DNA of 16,563 nucleotides from Bacteroidaceae bacterium (lineage in GTDB: Bacteria > Bacteroidota > Bacteroidia > Bacteroidales > Bacteroidaceae), in the NCBI GenBank assembly GCA_017557475.1, contig JAFYYO010000334.1, positions 1-16,563 of the forward strand, in the 5' to 3' direction. Positions 2,920 to 15,307 of this stretch are shown piece by piece. Each line of letters begins with the position of its first letter. The stretch's first letter is position 1. Below the pieces are notes generated by a model. It did not search any database and was not told where the DNA came from. It worked only from the letters and a program-made list of their open reading frames with translations. The translations under genes were made by a program, and so were the position numbers.

Positions 2920-2990
2920 TGGGCTATGGTGTAATGGTAACACTGCAGATTCTGGTCCTGCCTTTCCTGGTTCGAGTCCGGGTAGCCCAA
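2920..2990 (+). tRNA. tRNA-Gln, anticodon CTG
   Basis: The cloverleaf folds by eye. Acceptor stem TGGGCTA (2920-2926) pairs with TAGCCCA (2983-2989), discriminator A2990; D-stem GTGT/ACAC; anticodon loop TTCTGGT (2950-2956) with CTG at 2952-2954; variable loop of 4; T-stem CCTGG/CCGGG with loop TTCGAGT. The weak U1-A72 first pair is a known identity feature of bacterial tRNA-Gln. CCA is not encoded. One oddity is that the loop-closing anticodon-stem pair (A2949-C2957, positions 31-39) is an A-C mismatch. Confidence 0.93.
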
Positions 2991-3000
2991 CAGCCTAATT

Positions 3001-3033
3001 AAACGAAAGTGATGGAATTGCTTTCGTTTTTTT
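3001..3033 (+). terminator. Intrinsic terminator after tRNA-Gln
   Basis: The perfect 9-bp inverted repeat AAACGAAAG (3001-3009) and CTTTCGTTT (3021-3029) runs directly into a T-tract ending at 3033. It lies 11 bases after the tRNA. Confidence 0.85.
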
Positions 3034-3045
3034 GTGCCCTTTCCC

Positions 3046-3217
3046 AAAGCGCTTTCAGGAGTGTCGGCAAACTAGGCGTGGCTAATTGCCAAACTAGACG
3101 TGCCTAGTTGGCAATCATAACGTGCCTAATTGGCAAACTAGACGTGTTATGTTTGCAATCATAACGTGTTATGTTTTTGGATGCTCCCAGCTCTCCTGAA
3201 AACAAAAGCGCTTTTTT
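3046..3217. other. Long inverted repeat enclosing repeat array A, ending in a T-tract
   Basis: AAAGCGC (3046-3052) and TTTCAGGAG (3053-3061) are complementary to GCGCTTT (3208-3214) and CTCCTGAAA (3193-3201). This gives 16 paired bases with a 6-base bulge (3202-3207) around a loop of 131 bases that holds the whole 22-bp repeat array. A run of six T follows (3212-3217). The arrangement resembles a terminator whose loop has been filled by the array. It could instead act only at the DNA level as array boundaries. Confidence 0.5.
3066..3175. repeat. 22-bp palindromic tandem repeat array A (5 units)
   Basis: Five head-to-tail units of exactly 22 bp, at 3066, 3088, 3110, 3132 and 3154, are the reverse complement of the units in arrays B and C. 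Each unit is two palindromic arms around a CACG-type core; the canonical core is AACTAGGCACGTCTAGTT read on the minus strand. Here the arms come in two types, CTAG/TTAG-like and CATAA/TTATG-like, and two units combine one arm of each type. There are no unique spacers, so it is not a CRISPR array. The rest of the non-coding stretch 2991-3439 holds the tRNA terminator, the corA promoter and its leader. Confidence 0.85.
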
Positions 3218-3277: not shown

Positions 3278-3439
3278 CAAACATCAAAATCAAAGCTATT
3301 CTATAACAACAATGGACGACTATCACGCGGATAATTACGATTCTTAGCGCTCCGGAGTTTGCATCGCCATGCACGCTCCAAAGGGAGCCTGAAGATTGTG
3401 TGCATGTACCCCAAAAGAAACAAGAGGAGGAACGAAACG
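3278..3439 (+). promoter_or_regulatory. Long structured 5' leader of corA with mini-ORFs
   Basis: The leader holds two tiny reading frames: 3312-3347 (MDDYHADNYDS, 11 residues) and 3369-3392 (MHAPKGA). GCTCC occurs twice (3349-3353 and 3375-3379) and both copies can pair with the same GGAGC (3384-3388); the nearer one gives a 5-bp hairpin with loop AAAG. The CTCC in both copies can also pair with the GGAG in the ribosome-binding-like AGAGGAGG (3423-3430 region) just before the start. Competing pairings of this kind are typical of attenuation or translational switches. Leader-ORF control of corA is known in Salmonella (corL); similarity of mechanism here is inference only. Confidence 0.4.
3312..3347 (+). 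CDS. Possible 11-residue leader peptide upstream of corA
   Basis: ATG to TAG encodes MDDYHADNYDS, beginning about 35 bases after the predicted transcription start. It is acidic (four Asp among 11 residues) and has no recognisable family. It may be an occupied leader ORF that couples ribosome position to the competing GCTCC/GGAGC pairings downstream, or a chance frame. Only its position in an unusually long leader supports it. Confidence 0.25.
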   Translation: MDDYHADNYDS

Positions 3440-4378: not shown

Positions 4379-4404
4379 CATTGAACATTGAACATTGAAC
4401 ATTG
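4379..4404. repeat. 7-bp tandem microsatellite
   Basis: CATTGAA is repeated three times and followed by CATTG, directly after the corA stop codon and before its terminator. Its position in the 3' untranslated region means copy changes would not affect the protein. Confidence 0.85.
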
Positions 4405-4503: not shown

Positions 4504-6414
4504 ATGACTGACGAACTAGAAACTACTGCCCTTGAGCAGTCTTCTGAGATTACTAACGAGCAAGTTGAAGAACCCGTAGTGAAACAGGCAGAACCCGTTG
4601 CTGAACAGACCGAGCCTGAGGTAGAGCAGACTAATGCGGAACCCGAAGCAGAGGAACCAGAAAGCGAAGTTGAGGCTACTGAGGCTGAACAACATGTCGC
4701 CGAGCAAACCTTCCAGACAAAGGATGAAGTCGTTGCCCGAGTAAAGGAAATCGCCCAAAGCGGCGAAGCAGGCGACAAGACAGAGCTGGCTCTGCTGAAG
4801 CAACTCTTCTACAAGTTCCATAACGCCGAAGTTCAGGAAGCCTTCAAGGCTTTCGTCGAAGCAGGTGGTGAAGAGGACAAGTTCATGCCCGAACCCGATG
4901 TGACTGAGCCTGTTTTCCGCGAAGCTATGCAAACAATCCGCGAACGCCGTGCTGCCATCCAGGAAACACTGGAGAAACAGAAGCAAGACAACCTGAAGCG
5001 CAAGCTCGAGATACTTGAGCGCATCCAGCAATTAGCCTCTACTCCTGAGGAAGCAAACAAGAACTTCGACGAGTTCAAGGCACTTCAAAACGAGTGGAAG
5101 GAAATAAAGGCTGTGCCGGCAGAGCGTGCTACGGAGCTTTGGAAGAACTATCAACTCTACGTAGAACAGTACTATGATCTGCTGAAGCTCGGTCATGAGT
5201 TGCGCGACTACGACTTCCGCAAGAACCTCGAGACCAAGATGCGTCTCATCCAGCAGGCAGAGGCTCTTGCCGAGAATCCTGATGTGCTGCAGGCTTTCAA
5301 CCAGTTGCAGACGCTCCATCAGGAGTGGAAGGAGACGGGTCCCGTTGCCAAGGAAATCCGCGAAGACGTGTGGGCAAAGTTCAAGGAGGCTTCTACCGTC
5401 ATCAACAAGAAACATCAAGCATATTTCGATGCCATCAAGGCTCGCGAGGAAGAGAACCTTGCGAAGAAGACTGCACTGTGCGAACAACTCGAAGCCTTCG
5501 AGACAGATGGTCTCAAGACCTTCGCCGACTGGGATGGTATAACACAGAAAATCAAGGACCTGCAGGCAGAGTGGAAGACCATCGGCTTTGCTCCGCAGAA
5601 GATGAATACCGCTATCTTCGAGCGCTTCCGCCAGGGTTGCGACGCCTTCTTCGAGAAGAAGAACGCTTTCTTCAAAGGCATAAAGGAAGAACTCAACACC
5701 AACCTCGCCAAGAAGAAGGAACTCGTGGAGAAGGCCGAATCGCTGATGGAGAGCACAGAATGGCGCTCTACAGGCGACGTCCTCATCAACCTGCAGAAGC
5801 AATGGAAAGAGATTGGAGCTGTGCCTCGCAAGTATAGCGAAGACCTCTGGAAGCGCTTCACAGCAGCTTGCGACCACTTCTTCGAGGCTCGTCAGGCTGC
5901 TACGGCTGATGTTCGAAACGAGGAAAAAGCCAATAAGGAGCAGAAGCTCGGCATCATCGATCAGCTCAAGCAACTCGCTGAGACTGAGGGAGAAAACGTC
6001 ATCGCCAAGGTTAAGGAACTCCAGCAGCAGTGGAGCGAAGTCGGCCACGTGCCCTTCCGCGACAAAGAGACCCTGTATAAGGAGTATCGTGCGCTTTGCG
6101 ACAAGATCTACGATGCCTATGGTGTCAGTCAGGCACAGCGCCGTCTCAACAACTTCCGCAAGAACTTGGCGTCAAAGATAGAGAGTGCCGGCAGTTCGCT
6201 TGGCGACGAGCGTCAGAAGATGCAGCGTGCCTACGAACGTATGCTGGCCGAAATCAAGACCTACGAAAACAACATTGGTTTCCTCAATGCGGGCAGCAAG
6301 AAAGGCAATTCGCTTGTCGAAGCCATGAACAAGAAAGTGGAGAAACTTCGCGAAGAACTCAATCTCCTTGCTCAGAAGATTAAGGCCGTCGACGAAGAGA
6401 TGACAGAGGAGTAG
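4504..6414 (+). CDS. DUF349 five-repeat coiled-coil protein
   Basis: This 636-residue protein has no signal peptide or membrane segment. Residues 1-70 are an acidic, Glu/Gln/Pro-rich, low-complexity tail. The rest is mostly helical and carries five DUF349 repeats, each marked by a Trp in an LQ-x-x-W-K-x-I-G-x-V-P motif: W198, W275, W357, W434 and W510, spaced 77, 82, 77 and 76 residues. Most repeats continue with LW-K-F...CD-FF (for example 448-460). A final helical segment (about 545-636) looks like a coiled coil. DUF349 proteins are widespread in Bacteroidota and other bacteria; I know no firmly established function. The gene stands alone between the corA terminator and its own terminator at 6523-6577. 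Confidence 0.88.
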   Translation: MTDELETTALEQSSEITNEQVEEPVVKQAEPVAEQTEPEVEQTNAEPEAEEPESEVEATEAEQHVAEQTFQTKDEVVARVKEIAQSGEAGDKTELALLKQLFYKFHNAEVQEAFKAFVEAGGEEDKFMPEPDVTEPVFREAMQTIRERRAAIQETLEKQKQDNLKRKLEILERIQQLASTPEEANKNFDEFKALQNEWKEIKAVPAERATELWKNYQLYVEQYYDLLKLGHELRDYDFRKNLETKMRLIQQAEALAENPDVLQAFNQLQTLHQEWKETGPVAKEIREDVWAKFKEASTVINKKHQAYFDAIKAREEENLAKKTALCEQLEAFETDGLKTFADWDGITQKIKDLQAEWKTIGFAPQKMNTAIFERFRQGCDAFFEKKNAFFKGIKEELNTNLAKKKELVEKAESLMESTEWRSTGDVLINLQKQWKEIGAVPRKYSEDLWKRFTAACDHFFEARQAATADVRNEEKANKEQKLGIIDQLKQLAETEGENVIAKVKELQQQWSEVGHVPFRDKETLYKEYRALCDKIYDAYGVSQAQRRLNNFRKNLASKIESAGSSLGDERQKMQRAYERMLAEIKTYENNIGFLNAGSKKGNSLVEAMNKKVEKLREELNLLAQKIKAVDEEMTEE

Positions 6415-6416
6415 AA

Positions 6417-6526
6417 AACTAGCCACGCCTAGTTGCCCAACTAGGCACGTCTAGTTTGCGAATTAGGCACGTCTAGTTTGCCAACTAGCCACGCCTAGTT
6501 TGAGATCATAACACAACAGCATAGCA
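6417..6526. repeat. 22-bp palindromic tandem repeat array B (4 units plus a half)
   Basis: Four exact-period units start at 6417, 6439, 6461 and 6483, with canonical core AACTAGGCACGTCTAGTT. A degenerate fifth (6505-6526) keeps only an ATCATAACAC arm, the alternative arm type seen in array A. The array begins two bases after the DUF349 stop codon and ends at the left arm of the terminator. The 328-base gene-free stretch 6415-6742 otherwise holds that terminator, the next promoter and a hairpin; I see nothing in about 6580-6680. Confidence 0.88.
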
Positions 6527-6577
6527 AACGCTTGCCAGAAAGAGGTGTCCCTCAAGGCAGTGCGTTTGCTTTTTTTG
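6523..6577 (+). terminator. Intrinsic terminator of the DUF349 gene
   Basis: AGCAAACGC (6523-6531) pairs perfectly with GCGTTTGCT (6562-6570). The stem continues inward as TTGCC (6532-6536) with GGCAG (6556-6560), with one bulged base, and a run of seven T follows. It sits after repeat array B, so the array would be transcribed as part of the DUF349 mRNA. Confidence 0.88.
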
Positions 6578-6686: not shown

Positions 6687-6723
6687 TACCTTTGCAGCCG
6701 ATTAGTGCGCACTATGCGCGCAC
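6687..6723 (+). promoter_or_regulatory. Promoter and 5'-end hairpin of the acyl-chain operon
   Basis: TACCTTTG (6687-6694) is a perfect -7 element; I see no clear TTTG at the -33 position, so activation or a weak promoter is possible. Just past the likely transcription start, GTGCGC (6705-6710) and GCGCAC (6718-6723) form a 6-bp GC-rich hairpin with a 7-base loop. It would sit at the 5' end of the mRNA and could stabilise it. The gene starts 20 bases further on. Confidence 0.65.
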
Positions 6724-6742
6724 GTACAATAATAATATAGGC

Positions 6743-7882
6743 ATGAAGTGTACCGTAAAAGCTGTCGAAACTAAACGTCAGATGACCGACTTCGTGGAAC
6801 TTCCAGGGAAGATCTACAAAGGCAATTCATGCTATGTGCCCGACTTGGAAAAGGACGTGCGAGGCTGGTTCAATCCCAATCACAACCCAGGTCTCGGGCA
6901 TTGCGACGTGAAGCCTTTCGTCGCCTACAGCGAGGAAGGAGAGCCTGTTGGACGCATCGTGGGCATCATCAACCACAAGGCAAACCAGATCTGGAAAGGC
7001 AATTGCGTACGCTTCGGATGGATTGAGTTCATCGACGACACAGACGTCTCCGCCGCTCTACTCAAGGCTGTCGAGGATTGGGGAAGAGAGAAGAGCATGG
7101 ATTCCATACAGGGCCCGCTCGGCATCTCCGACTTCGATAAGGAAGGCATGCTCGTCGAAGACTTCGACCAAATGGGTTCCGCCATCACCATCTACAACCC
7201 TGCTTACTATCCTGAGCACATGGAGAAGCTCGGCTTCAAGAAGGAAGTGGACTGGGTACAAGTAAAGGTGGAGGTTCCTACGGAAGTGCCGGAACGCTTT
7301 GCTCGCGTTTCAAAGCTGGTGAGCGACCTGTATGGACTGAAGGTAAAGAAGCTCACGCACGATGACATCTACAAGGAAGGCTACGGACGCAAGATATTCC
7401 ATCTGCTCAACGAAGCCTATAAGCAGCTCTTCGGCTATACGCCTCATACCGATGAAGAGGCAGATGCTTTCGTCAACGAATACATCAGTATGCTCGACCT
7501 CAAGATGCTGCCGATGGTGGAGGACAATGAAGGCAACCTCATCGCCTGCAGTGTCACGATGCCCAATCTCTCGCGAGCCCTGCAGAAATCGCATGGACGC
7601 CTGTTCCCCTTGGGATGGTTCCACTTGCTGCGAGCACTGAAGTTCAAGCACGAAGATGAGGTGGAGCTACTCCTCATCGCCGTTCATCCCGAATGGCAAG
7701 CATTGGGAGTCAACGCCTTGCTCTTTGCCGACCTCATTCCCATCTTCAATGAGATAGGATTCCACAACGCAGAGACAGGACCGATGCTCGAGAGCAACAT
7801 GAAGGTCCTCTCGCAGTGGAAGGTGCTCAACCCCACTTTCTGCAAGCGCAGAAGATGCTTCAGTAAAGAAATTCAACCGTAA
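6743..7882 (+). CDS. Large GNAT-fold N-acyltransferase-like protein
   Basis: From the ATG at 6743 this is 379 residues; the longer frame beginning at a TTG (6692) would overlap the -7 promoter element, so it is rejected. There is no signal peptide. An N-terminal GNAT-like region contains VGRIVGIIN (about 69-77), a GP motif followed by DFDKEGMLVEDF (about 124-141) and YNPAYYPEHMEKLGF (about 151-165). A second segment has LLLIAVHPEWQALGVNALL (about 309-327), which resembles a GNAT acetyl-CoA-binding strand and loop, and ETGPMLESN near 344-352. The size and GP...G-L-EdF motif resemble a family of long GNAT proteins in lipid clusters; I recall bacterial ceramide synthase (bCerS) being GNAT-like, but I cannot confirm membership. 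It heads a tight operon with a KAS and an ACP, so an acyl-ACP or acyl-CoA donor and an amine acceptor are likely (inference). Confidence 0.75.
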   Translation: MKCTVKAVETKRQMTDFVELPGKIYKGNSCYVPDLEKDVRGWFNPNHNPGLGHCDVKPFVAYSEEGEPVGRIVGIINHKANQIWKGNCVRFGWIEFIDDTDVSAALLKAVEDWGREKSMDSIQGPLGISDFDKEGMLVEDFDQMGSAITIYNPAYYPEHMEKLGFKKEVDWVQVKVEVPTEVPERFARVSKLVSDLYGLKVKKLTHDDIYKEGYGRKIFHLLNEAYKQLFGYTPHTDEEADAFVNEYISMLDLKMLPMVEDNEGNLIACSVTMPNLSRALQKSHGRLFPLGWFHLLRALKFKHEDEVELLLIAVHPEWQALGVNALLFADLIPIFNEIGFHNAETGPMLESNMKVLSQWKVLNPTFCKRRRCFSKEIQP

Positions 7883-13402: not shown

Positions 13403-13903
13403 ATGTTTAGTCGTGTATTAATAGCATTTCTTTCGTTCTTTGCATCCTGCTCATTGCTTTTTGCAATTACGATACCCAAGGAGCATATCTACGTCTTTGA
13501 ACGCAGCACGAACTCCAACTACGTCTGCTATGACATCAACTTAAAAGGCGGCAATCTCTGCCAGAAGGAGCCGCTTAAGTCCTATTGGGTGTTGGACGAG
13601 GGAACCAGGATAGGAGAGCCTTCTTATTTGGAGAAAAAGATTGCTTTCGGCATCAAGGTCGTCAGTTCGACCGAGAATGAGGCTGTTGTTCACATGACAG
13701 CATACAAGGACTTGAAGATACGCATCTGTAAGCACAAAGGGAAGTGGGTAGGCATCGTCAAGCAGAATGGTCACGAGATGGTTCTGCAGAAGATGTTTGC
13801 CCAGATGAAGCAGTCGGTTTATCCCAAGTGCGAGTATGTGGACGTCTACGGCACGGACATTAATACCGGCGAAAAGCGAAAGGAACGCATCATGGCGAAG
13901 TAG
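13403..13903 (+). CDS. Small exported protein, DUF4833-like
   Basis: This 166-residue protein has an N-terminal hydrophobic signal (residues 4-21, FLSFFASCSLLFA then ITIPKEH). A cysteine at position 16 lies in a weak lipobox-like FASC. The mature part has NSNYVCYDINL, KSYWVLDEGTR and AFGIKVVSS, which I associate with DUF4833; the family call is from memory. It is beta-rich with Lys-rich segments. It follows the DUF5686 gene by 35 bases with no terminator between, so it is probably the last gene of the operon, ended by the terminator at 13926-13977. No catalytic residues are evident. Confidence 0.6.
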   Translation: MFSRVLIAFLSFFASCSLLFAITIPKEHIYVFERSTNSNYVCYDINLKGGNLCQKEPLKSYWVLDEGTRIGEPSYLEKKIAFGIKVVSSTENEAVVHMTAYKDLKIRICKHKGKWVGIVKQNGHEMVLQKMFAQMKQSVYPKCEYVDVYGTDINTGEKRKERIMAK

Positions 13904-13925: not shown

Positions 13926-13977
13926 AAAACAGAAGGCAGCAGGGATGCAAATTGTATCTCTGCTGCCTTCTTGTTTT
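13926..13977. terminator. Strong bidirectional terminator at a convergent junction
   Basis: AGAAGGCAGCAG (13931-13942) pairs perfectly with CTGCTGCCTTCT (13960-13971). The stem extends inward with mostly paired bases (GU pairs included), and outward as AAAAC/GTTTT with one bulge. T-tracts exist on both strands. It serves the plus-strand operon ending at 13903, and probably the minus-strand redoxin gene ending at 14107 after passing array C. Confidence 0.9.
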
Positions 13978-14086
13978 ACTACCTGTGCCTAGTTCCTCAA
14001 CTAGGCACGTCTAGTTTGCCAACTAGGCACGTCTAGTTTGTCAATTAGCCACGTCTAATTTGCCAACTAGCCACGGTGTGTTTTCA
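13977..14086. repeat. 22-bp palindromic tandem repeat array C (3 full units plus 2 degenerate)
   Basis: Full units start at 13999, 14021 and 14043, all in the same orientation as array B. Degenerate units in exact phase flank them (13977-13998 and 14065-14086). The first two full units share AACTAGGCACGTCTAGTT exactly; the third has TTAG and CTAA in place of the CTAG arms. The array lies between the bidirectional terminator and the stop codon of the minus-strand redoxin gene. Confidence 0.87.
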
Positions 14087-14106: not shown

Positions 14107-15252
14107 CTAAAGCAACGTCCTGATTGCCTCTTCCAGATTGGGAATGTCCTCCTGCCTGGCCTGTAGGTCGCAGTTTCGGTCGATGAGGAAATAGCAGGGC
14201 AGGTGTTCTACGGAATACAATTCGAGCATGTCGCTCTCCAATCCTTCCTCGCAATAGACGCTGACCCAAGGCAGTGCTTCGCATCTTTGCTTCCAGAGAT
14301 GCTCGTTGGCATCCACGCTTACCTGATAAATCTCGAATCCTCGGTCGTGATACTTGCCGTAAAGTTCCCGCAAGAGGAGCGTCCTTTCCGTGCTTCCGTC
14401 CAAGGAAAACGCGGTGAAATCGAGCAAAACGACGTTGCCGCGGAGGCTGCTGAGCGTCCTTTCCTGCCCGTTGATGTCGGGGAAAGTCATGTCGATGATG
14501 CCCAGTTCTCGCACTTTGTCGCCGTCGATGTTGAGCACAATCTGACGCGGCTTGGCTTGATTCTTGCGGCCCTCCTGAATGATGTTGCAGAGGTTCTGGG
14601 TGCGTGGGCTCTGCGTGTACTTTTCGTTCCAGGCATTGGCAACTGCGCGCATCCAGGTCAGGTCGCTCTTGTCGTGCATCGGATTAAAGATGAGGCTCGA
14701 GCCAAGCGTCTGGAAACAGGCGTAGTAACTGTAGGCTTTGTCGTAGTTTCCGAACAGAAAATCCTTCTTGACCTCCGCTTTGTACTTATCGACGAGCCCT
14801 TCTATCATAGTGTCCCGTTCCTCGATGGTGAAGTTGCGATCAGTGGAGATGCGGCGCACTTCTCGCTCCAGGTCGGCCAGTTTCAGGCAGAGAAGTCGGA
14901 TGGTGTCACAGGTTCCGCTGCCCTCCACTTCGTAGCCGAACGACAGATTCTTCAGGTCGGCCTTGATGCGAATCGACTCCGTGCTGTCGATAGCGAGGTT
15001 GATGCCTTGACCACCAATGCGGAGACGATAGAACTCGGGACTCTCGACGCCATCCTTCTCGAAATGGAAAGCACCATCTTCCTTCAGCCGAACACTGTCG
15101 ATAGCCACAGTTCCTTCGCCCAAAGTCAAGTGTTCCAAGTAGAGCATGCACGAGTCAGCACCGCTGATTTGACCTTCGATGCAGAACTTCTTCTCCTGTC
15201 GGCAAGCACTCAGCAAAACGAGTGCAAAGAGTATTGTAAGTGTCTTCTTCAT
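14107..15252 (-). CDS. Redoxin-fold lipoprotein (DUF4369/TlpA-like) lacking CXXC
   Basis: The start at 15252 gives 381 residues with a lipoprotein signal, MKKTLTILFALVLLSAC (Cys17 lipidated). A longer frame reaching 15279 would overlap the promoter -7 box. Residues about 20-120 resemble the beta-rich DUF4369 domain; a helical linker follows to about 230; the last ~130 residues form a thioredoxin/AhpC-TSA fold (FPDINGQERTLSSLRGNVVLLDF, FEIYQVSVD, cis-Pro EHLPCYFLID). Where TlpA has WCxxC this protein reads FTAFSLDGS (about 278-287), so no redox-active pair is visible. This loss is common in one Bacteroidota subgroup, as I recall, suggesting binding or scaffolding rather than disulfide exchange. 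It has its own promoter. Confidence 0.85.
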   Translation of the reverse strand: MKKTLTILFALVLLSACRQEKKFCIEGQISGADSCMLYLEHLTLGEGTVAIDSVRLKEDGAFHFEKDGVESPEFYRLRIGGQGINLAIDSTESIRIKADLKNLSFGYEVEGSGTCDTIRLLCLKLADLEREVRRISTDRNFTIEERDTMIEGLVDKYKAEVKKDFLFGNYDKAYSYYACFQTLGSSLIFNPMHDKSDLTWMRAVANAWNEKYTQSPRTQNLCNIIQEGRKNQAKPRQIVLNIDGDKVRELGIIDMTFPDINGQERTLSSLRGNVVLLDFTAFSLDGSTERTLLLRELYGKYHDRGFEIYQVSVDANEHLWKQRCEALPWVSVYCEEGLESDMLELYSVEHLPCYFLIDRNCDLQARQEDIPNLEEAIRTLL

Positions 15253-15276
15253 TCCTTTCAAGTCGTAAATGCAGTG

Positions 15277-15307
15277 CAAAGGTACGAAGAAGCGAATACA
15301 ATACCAA
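15277..15307 (-). promoter_or_regulatory. Promoter of the redoxin lipoprotein gene
   Basis: On the minus strand TACCTTTG (15277-15284) is a perfect -7 element. A TTG (15305-15307) lies 20 bases upstream of it. The start codon is 24 bases downstream of the box. Confidence 0.75.

Follow-up and report, generated by a model that had tools for sequence, protein, structure and literature searches.

Short tandem arrays with a period of 22 bp, three of which lie in the stretch of Bacteroidaceae DNA analysed here (16,563 nucleotides, referred to as the window), belong to a genome-wide family. Its period, dyad symmetry, copy number, abundance and preference for gene ends, as well as the occurrence of different sequences at shared sites, were all computed from related genomes. 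The arrays may act at the level of DNA, as dyad sites spaced two helical turns apart and bound by a putative protein near transcript ends, a reading whose chances are put at about even.

Three phased arrays in the window

Tandem Repeats Finder reports a period of 22 at 3066-3175, 6417-6526 and 13977-14086, in agreement with the preliminary description of this DNA. The motif AACTAGNCACGNCTAGTT, allowing up to three mismatches, matches the window 20 times versus 0.07 expected from shuffles, a count that takes both strands and in which a near-palindromic unit can score twice. The estimate of about 17 CTAG tetramers within the arrays proved exact: the window holds 21 in total, and 17 fall inside the three arrays (4, 7 and 6, respectively). 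Each unit consists of a 7-bp half-site, a 4-bp core, the inverted 7-bp half-site and a 4-bp linker, which together make an imperfect palindrome. In the window the core is CACG, itself non-palindromic, and the linker is often TGCC. The arrays and their neighbours are as follows.

2920..2991, + strand: tRNA-Gln(ctg), upstream neighbour of array 1
3001..3029, + strand: terminator-like hairpin with a T-run, 3' of the tRNA and upstream of array 1
3066..3175, - strand: array 1, five 22-bp units with core CACG on the - strand and the words AACATAA, AATTAGG and AACTAGG mixed
4504..6414, + strand: DUF349 protein gene with array 2 at its 3' end; the query for finding relatives
6417..6526, + strand: array 2, four good units (6417-6500) and one degenerate, between the DUF349 stop codon (6412-6414) and a terminator hairpin
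6523..6576, + strand: terminator-like stem AGCAAACGC / GCGTTTGCT with a T-run at the end of array 2, read directly from the sequence, its loop exceeding the length covered by the hairpin scan
13403..13903, + strand: DUF4833 protein gene, left member of the convergent pair around array 3
13931..13971, + strand: terminator-like hairpin of 19 pairs, upstream of array 3
13977..14086, + strand: array 3, three good units (13999-14060) and a degenerate unit at each edge, between convergent genes
14107..15279, - strand: thioredoxin-like/DUF4369 protein gene, right member of the convergent pair around array 3

Arrays 2 and 3 mostly use the half-site word AACTAGG or near variants. Array 1 lies in the opposite orientation, with the core as CGTG on the + strand, and combines a CTAGG-like with a CATAA-like half-site word, which leaves some of its units non-palindromic. 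Some of the outermost units of the window arrays are degenerate. By the ORF list all three arrays are intergenic, as had been claimed, with small opposite-strand ORFs overlapping arrays 1 and 2. Array 1 lies downstream of tRNA-Gln and its terminator and array 2 starts two bases past the DUF349 stop codon, ahead of its terminator; two of the three arrays sit past a terminator-like hairpin. A 10-bp inverted repeat, AAAGCGCTTT, at 3046-3055 and 3205-3214 encloses array 1.

The genes of the window are ordinary ones: FtsH (named from its M41 peptidase, AAA and FtsH_ext domains), RsfS, tRNA-Gln, CorA, DUF349, ketoacyl synthase, FAD oxidoreductase, DUF5686, DUF4833 and a thioredoxin-like protein, together with a protein at 6692-7882 that has no Pfam match. 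At gathering thresholds, Rfam matched only the tRNA in the window. Apart from the arrays, an 11-codon ORF encoding MDDYHADNYDS (3312-3347, + strand) stops 11 bases ahead of the CorA frame. When the sequences upstream of corA were compared among the loci listed, a start reading MDDYHA, MDDYYA or MDDYPA preceded corA in 55 of 59 loci, down to CorA proteins only 68% identical. By analogy with mgtL, a magnesium-sensing leader peptide, this ORF may encode a leader of the same kind.

Family members in related genomes and at shared sites

Relatives were found through the DUF349 gene, giving 78 loci, mostly from metagenome-assembled genomes of rumen and gut Bacteroidaceae/Prevotellaceae. None of these 78 loci matched the window motif with up to two mismatches, and 13 of 16 relative genomes searched whole did, with 2 to 112 matches each (both strands counted, so palindromic units can count twice) versus 0 to 2 per genome for a reversed control motif. 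The absence from the 78 loci suggested a repeat private to the window, an idea abandoned once arrays of other sequence were found at the same sites. An exact-motif search of relatives understates the family, because species differ in their half-sites and have unlike arrays at the same syntenic sites. The preliminary description had looked to relatives for intergenic arrays in conserved 22-bp phase; the phase is indeed constant and the arrays are mostly intergenic, while the unit sequence changes from species to species.

Its suggestion of a genome-wide family is borne out by the tally of periods as well as by the motif. In a pool of 3.88 Mb made up of the window, related loci and sampled genomes, from which arrays repeating at 12 bp or less were removed, noncoding tandem arrays number 195 at period 22, 18 at period 21, none at 20 and three at 23, with at most six at every other period from 14 to 40. 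Locus L004, which lies within G003:C1, and L035, within G413:C7, are counted once each in this pool. A lag analysis of two genomes likewise gives a spike at 22. The five best-sampled genomes (1.53 Mb) hold 193 arrays, 162 of them noncoding, or about one per 9.5 kb. These arrays have a median of 4.0 units (interquartile range 3.4-4.7, maximum 8.4). By extrapolation, genomes of the rumen clade would carry up to a few hundred arrays each. Gene calls followed a simple ORF rule and the remaining 31 arrays overlap called ORFs, so counts by gene context are approximate. Within the same five genomes, 56 of 64 places matching AAC-N4-CACG-N4-GTT are clustered or have a similar neighbour at 22 bp.

The shared architecture is filled with many different letters. 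In relatives, units (with the first half-sites and cores as listed per array, small variants occurring) include ATAAGTC-CCTG-TACTTAT-TGCC, GCTTCAT-CATG-ATGAAGC-AATT and GGAGGAC-TGCA-GTCCTCC-CACG. The consensus units of the 162 noncoding arrays reach a mean dyad score of 7.57 of 11 versus 5.76 for shuffled units, and 51% of these arrays versus 3.3% of shuffled units score at least 8; the 31 arrays overlapping called ORFs score 7.06 versus 5.67. Several unrelated arm sequences occur in each genome, and half-sites vary among arrays within one genome.

The specific class to which the window belongs, with open arms, is narrower. A survey of 399 genomes sampled from the family gave two successive copies of AAC-N4-CACG-N4-GTT-N4 in five, each of them already known from the search with the window's gene, and in no other of the remaining 394; among genomes reached through loci, 17 of 20 have them. 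The reversed pattern has no match in the 399 sampled or the 20 locus-derived genomes. As far as sampled, the AAC/CACG/GTT class is confined to the group related to the window, whereas the array architecture is wider. In 40 stretches from other family members (582 kb, some stretches shorter than 3 kb), six arrays have period 21 and four have period 22, with none or one at each other period from 15 to 30. Plain palindromes account for several of these but not for all, and shorter repeats make up two of the period-21 arrays. Under looser settings, 140 kb of a more distant genome, G129, holds six arrays at 21, three at 22 and none elsewhere between 15 and 30. Palindromic period-21 arrays were also noted in distant relatives (L047, 1187-1270; L052, 19735-19823; L232, 10291-10395 and 17472-17559), and periods 21 and 22 can occur side by side in one genome.

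Arrays of different sequence occupy the same syntenic sites in related species. From a map of 32 loci, tallied by hand, a period-22 array follows DUF349 in 14 of 28 loci that have both neighbours, is flanked by the two convergent genes in 11 of 20, and separates rsfS from corA in 7 of 22. The remaining gaps from corA to the DUF4833 gene hold a single period-22 array (in L015). Tandem Repeats Finder alone adds a further array at the convergent site, in L010; several of the loci that have none there have a very short gap. Other gaps in several loci gave period-21 hits, at least some of which are 7-bp repeats. After DUF349 the half-site reads AACTAGG in the window, AAAGACC in L001, AACTTAA in L005, ATAAG in L008 and GCTTGTA in L021, and the DNA shared between pairs of 21 loci is 76-94% identical. 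Between L018 and L019 (92% identical), an orthologous array has gone from AAGC..GCTT to AAGA..TCTT, a paired change on both arms, the right arm being changed in three of the four readable units (one case, in an alignment read by eye).

Placement near gene ends and covariation of the arms

Counting only gaps of 120-600 bp in the five genomes, with shorter and longer gaps left out, an array is present in 38 of 70 convergent gaps, 55 of 181 co-directional gaps and 16 of 66 divergent gaps; the difference between convergent and divergent gaps has p = 0.0004. Within co-directional gaps, the median distance of arrays in four of the five genomes is 36-48 nt to the upstream stop codon and 104-168 nt to the start codon that follows. 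The exception is G014, in which arrays occupy no convergent gap out of four and four divergent gaps out of nine, with co-directional medians of 236 and 350 nt. G007 shows no enrichment of convergent over co-directional gaps (5/16 versus 13/42). The counts do not support arrays as replacements for terminators. Terminators were detected about as often in convergent gaps with arrays (16/46) as in those without (12/43), and in co-directional gaps they are commoner alongside arrays (8/59 versus 9/164). Beside co-directional genes, CACG lies on the sense strand 26 times and on the antisense strand 19 times, which is no clear bias.

Pairing between the N4 arms of the open-arm class was examined both across and within genomes. 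The pooled search gave 128 single-unit hits versus 10 for the reversed pattern, and each of the 75 clusters (2.83 Mb) contributed a single unit to the pooled test, whose null mixes genomes. Watson-Crick pairs exceed expectation at n1 (34 versus 26.6; p 0.03, weak), n2 (47 versus 27.7), n3 (48 versus 29.1) and n4 (44 versus 32.3), with no excess of G-T or A-C in the same 75 clusters. Sliding the register gave no clear excess, at 74 versus 67.6 and 57 versus 64.7 (from a first run of 76 clusters, with two loci counted twice). Taken alone, G004 has a slight pairing excess (4.72 versus 4.62 of 7, p 0.05).

A permutation within genomes used 125 arrays from 11 genomes, one place per array, drawn from 150 listed places that cover 11 of the 17 class-matching genomes. 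Here n3 reaches significance in each of the two units (p 0.001 and 0.0003), as does n4 (p < 0.001 and 0.04), and n1 and n2 are significant in neither (lowest p 0.057). The pooled covariation is thus partly a between-genome effect. Across the linker the inner pairs co-vary as well (n3 0.003, n4 0.025), and so do the outermost halves of two units at these positions (n3 0.007, n4 < 0.001). Because they co-vary about equally within a unit, across the linker and between units, the pairing is not specific to one hairpin; rather, a single inner word recurs through the array in either orientation. A hand-picked subset of 101 places gives a like picture, with n4 significant in one unit only. Among mismatches at n4 in the first unit, A-C (2 versus 9.8) is depleted more than G-T (36 versus 43.4); in the second unit the effect is weak (A-C 12 versus 15.0, G-T 23 versus 26.5). 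G-T pairs are never significantly above expectation in either the pooled or the within-genome tests. On balance, the covariation agrees better with repeated half-sites for a binder than with a 7-bp hairpin.

A putative binding site and competing explanations

On the favoured reading, each array would present a run of about four dyad-symmetric putative protein-binding sites, all on one face of the DNA, to a candidate DNA-binding protein or small set of paralogues that would bind them cooperatively. A period of 21-22 rather than 20 or 23, about four copies, a motif found in or beside arrays at most of its places and insensitivity to strand together suggest a cooperative dimer on one face; the preliminary description had also envisaged proteins on one DNA face, with which the period is compatible as a matter of fit. 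The inner half-site words recur within an array in either orientation, whether compared across the core, the linker or different units, as would be expected of repeated half-sites for one binder. The location at gene ends, convergent ones above all, suggests that bound arrays could serve as a boundary between neighbouring transcription units, whether by curbing read-through, retaining supercoils or structuring the nucleoid. The same kinds of boundary role have been proposed for REP/BIME elements. We infer from these patterns that such a protein exists, that it binds cooperatively and that the arrays act as boundaries. Against this reading, half-site variation within one genome is hard to explain with one sequence-specific protein, and replacement of array sequence at many sites would need a hypothetical homogenising process.

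Were the binding-site reading right, gut and rumen Bacteroidaceae would hold a large set of gene-end elements that would escape repeat catalogues based on sequence, since nothing but the 21-22 bp phase and the dyad is shared. It would also point to an abundant DNA-binding protein, provide a natural test of a protein and hundreds of sites evolving together, and be relevant to how adjacent transcription units are kept apart in these bacteria. A broader and more tentative proposal, considered unlikely, is that a class of chromosomal elements, arrays of about four dyad sites exactly two helical turns apart at transcript ends, is defined across Bacteroidaceae by helical geometry and not by sequence, its letters being rewritten in concert at lasting sites as the reader protein or proteins change specificity. 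If true, such geometry-defined arrays would be a bacterial counterpart of fast-evolving satellite or insulator DNA.

The main rivals invoke either no function or no sequence-specific reader. Neutral or selfish satellites, generated and homogenised by slippage and unequal exchange, with template switching at imperfect hairpins perfecting the palindromes and gene ends persisting as the places of least harm, are an unlikely explanation. In their favour, array centres lie nearer to their own consensus than edges do (for instance, 0.89 versus 0.68 in G003, where edges include partly flanking sequence), identity is higher within arrays than between arrays in four of five genomes, the inner words are common to the whole array and not matched unit by unit, and the array orthologous between L018 and L019 shows the paired change given above. 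Against this rival count the confinement of periods to 21-22 with none at 20, the narrow range of copy number, the AAC/CACG/GTT frame common to many genomes and the presence of arrays at the same sites in many species. That frame, conserved in sequence, also argues against purely structural DNA, in which supercoiling between convergent genes would make the palindromes extrude as hairpins or cruciforms that are read by shape, for instance by HU-like proteins or gyrase. This possibility is rather unlikely; arms that differ while geometry stays the same across classes, inner-arm covariation and the preference for convergent gaps speak for it. The stems are short and often imperfect, however, within genomes the outer arm positions show no significant covariation, and cruciforms need no exact two-turn spacing.

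An action through RNA, which the preliminary description had raised as a hairpin per unit, is a weaker candidate and seems quite unlikely: units in 3' untranslated regions would fold as CACG-loop hairpins that protect or regulate the mRNA. Arrays do lie past stop codons, the unit can be drawn as a 4-nt loop on a 7-bp stem, the N4 arms co-vary by Watson-Crick rules when pooled, and the stronger depletion of A-C than of G-T at n4 of the first unit is a mild hint of G-U tolerance or single-stranded structure. These points are outweighed by the lack of a clear sense bias, by outer pairs n1 and n2 that do not co-vary significantly within genomes, by inner covariation about equal across the linker and between different units, by G-T pairs that are not significantly above expectation and by an excess in G004 that is slight; moreover, two of the three window arrays lie beyond a terminator-like hairpin, and the unit-wise RNA hairpin is accordingly not upheld. 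Least probable of all is spread as REP-type palindromes by a tyrosine (Y1/RAYT) transposase, or as other miniature mobile elements. The arrays are REP-like in being abundant, extragenic, species-specific and biased to gene ends (PMC3733652, PMC1525189), and 9 of 16 genomes have Y1_Tnp. RAYT mobilisation was nonetheless rejected as a general cause, Y1_Tnp (PF01797) having no match in the other 7 of the 16, six of which carry the motif. The arrays also recur at fixed sites. Origin as MITEs was likewise rejected, since terminal inverted repeats are not general (mean flank score 6.39 versus 6.20 for mismatched flanks in 187 arrays); 22 bp further out the same arrays show a small excess (6.29 versus 5.95, with high scores in 2.7% versus 0.7%). 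A phage origin was set aside after the architecture pattern gave no match in viral contigs, in a search that had no positive control and whose reversed control also gave none.

The arrays had not been recognised as REP, BIME or CRISPR, and by the tests made they are neither REP nor CRISPR. According to PMC3733652, PMC1525189 and PMC2817692, REP elements are small extragenic palindromes in high copy, species-specific and situated mainly in convergent and co-directional gaps. Among the REP features tested, only the extragenic palindrome in high copy was found in the arrays, as seen in the noncoding majority and in dyad scores above those of shuffles. Unit listings read by eye have no common terminal GTAG or CGTC tag; CGTC appears only where the letters after CACG begin with TC, and is then internal. 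The arrays differ from REP further in running head-to-tail in fixed 22-bp phase, whereas REP units alternate or are spaced, in having several unrelated arm sequences per genome, and in occurring in genomes without the transposase. Binding by DNA gyrase, IHF or Pol I is a further trait of REP/BIME elements. Given the shared gap preference, the function of the arrays may still resemble that of REP. CRISPR arrays are likewise made of short near-palindromic tandem units, but the present units are contiguous with 4-bp linkers, have no spacers and occupy many sites, and no cas domain was found among ten window proteins scanned.

Other phased or inverted repeats come close in single respects. Plasmid iterons are direct repeats of about 22 bp that are helically phased and protein-bound at a replication origin; the arrays share the repeat length and the helical phase, but lie at many chromosomal sites, and none of the ten window proteins has a Rep domain. 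The dRS3 elements of Neisseria are intergenic inverted repeats of about 20 bp with a variable middle; they resemble the arrays as inverted repeats in intergenic DNA, but are not known to be phased head-to-tail at 22 bp. Among the papers listed by searches of open-licence literature, none described arrays such as those of the window. Heptamer direct repeats of the TAACTGA type, abundant intergenic tandem repeats reported in five Bacteroidetes, differ in having a period of 7 rather than 22 and, in the main species, a position mostly just upstream of start codons (PMC4679880). Period-7 tandem repeats are also very frequent in the present material, with 150 rows over 79 sequences (L001-L078 and the window), among them a CATTGAA repeat in the window at 4379-4404; these are possibly the same as the heptamer repeats described in other phyla.
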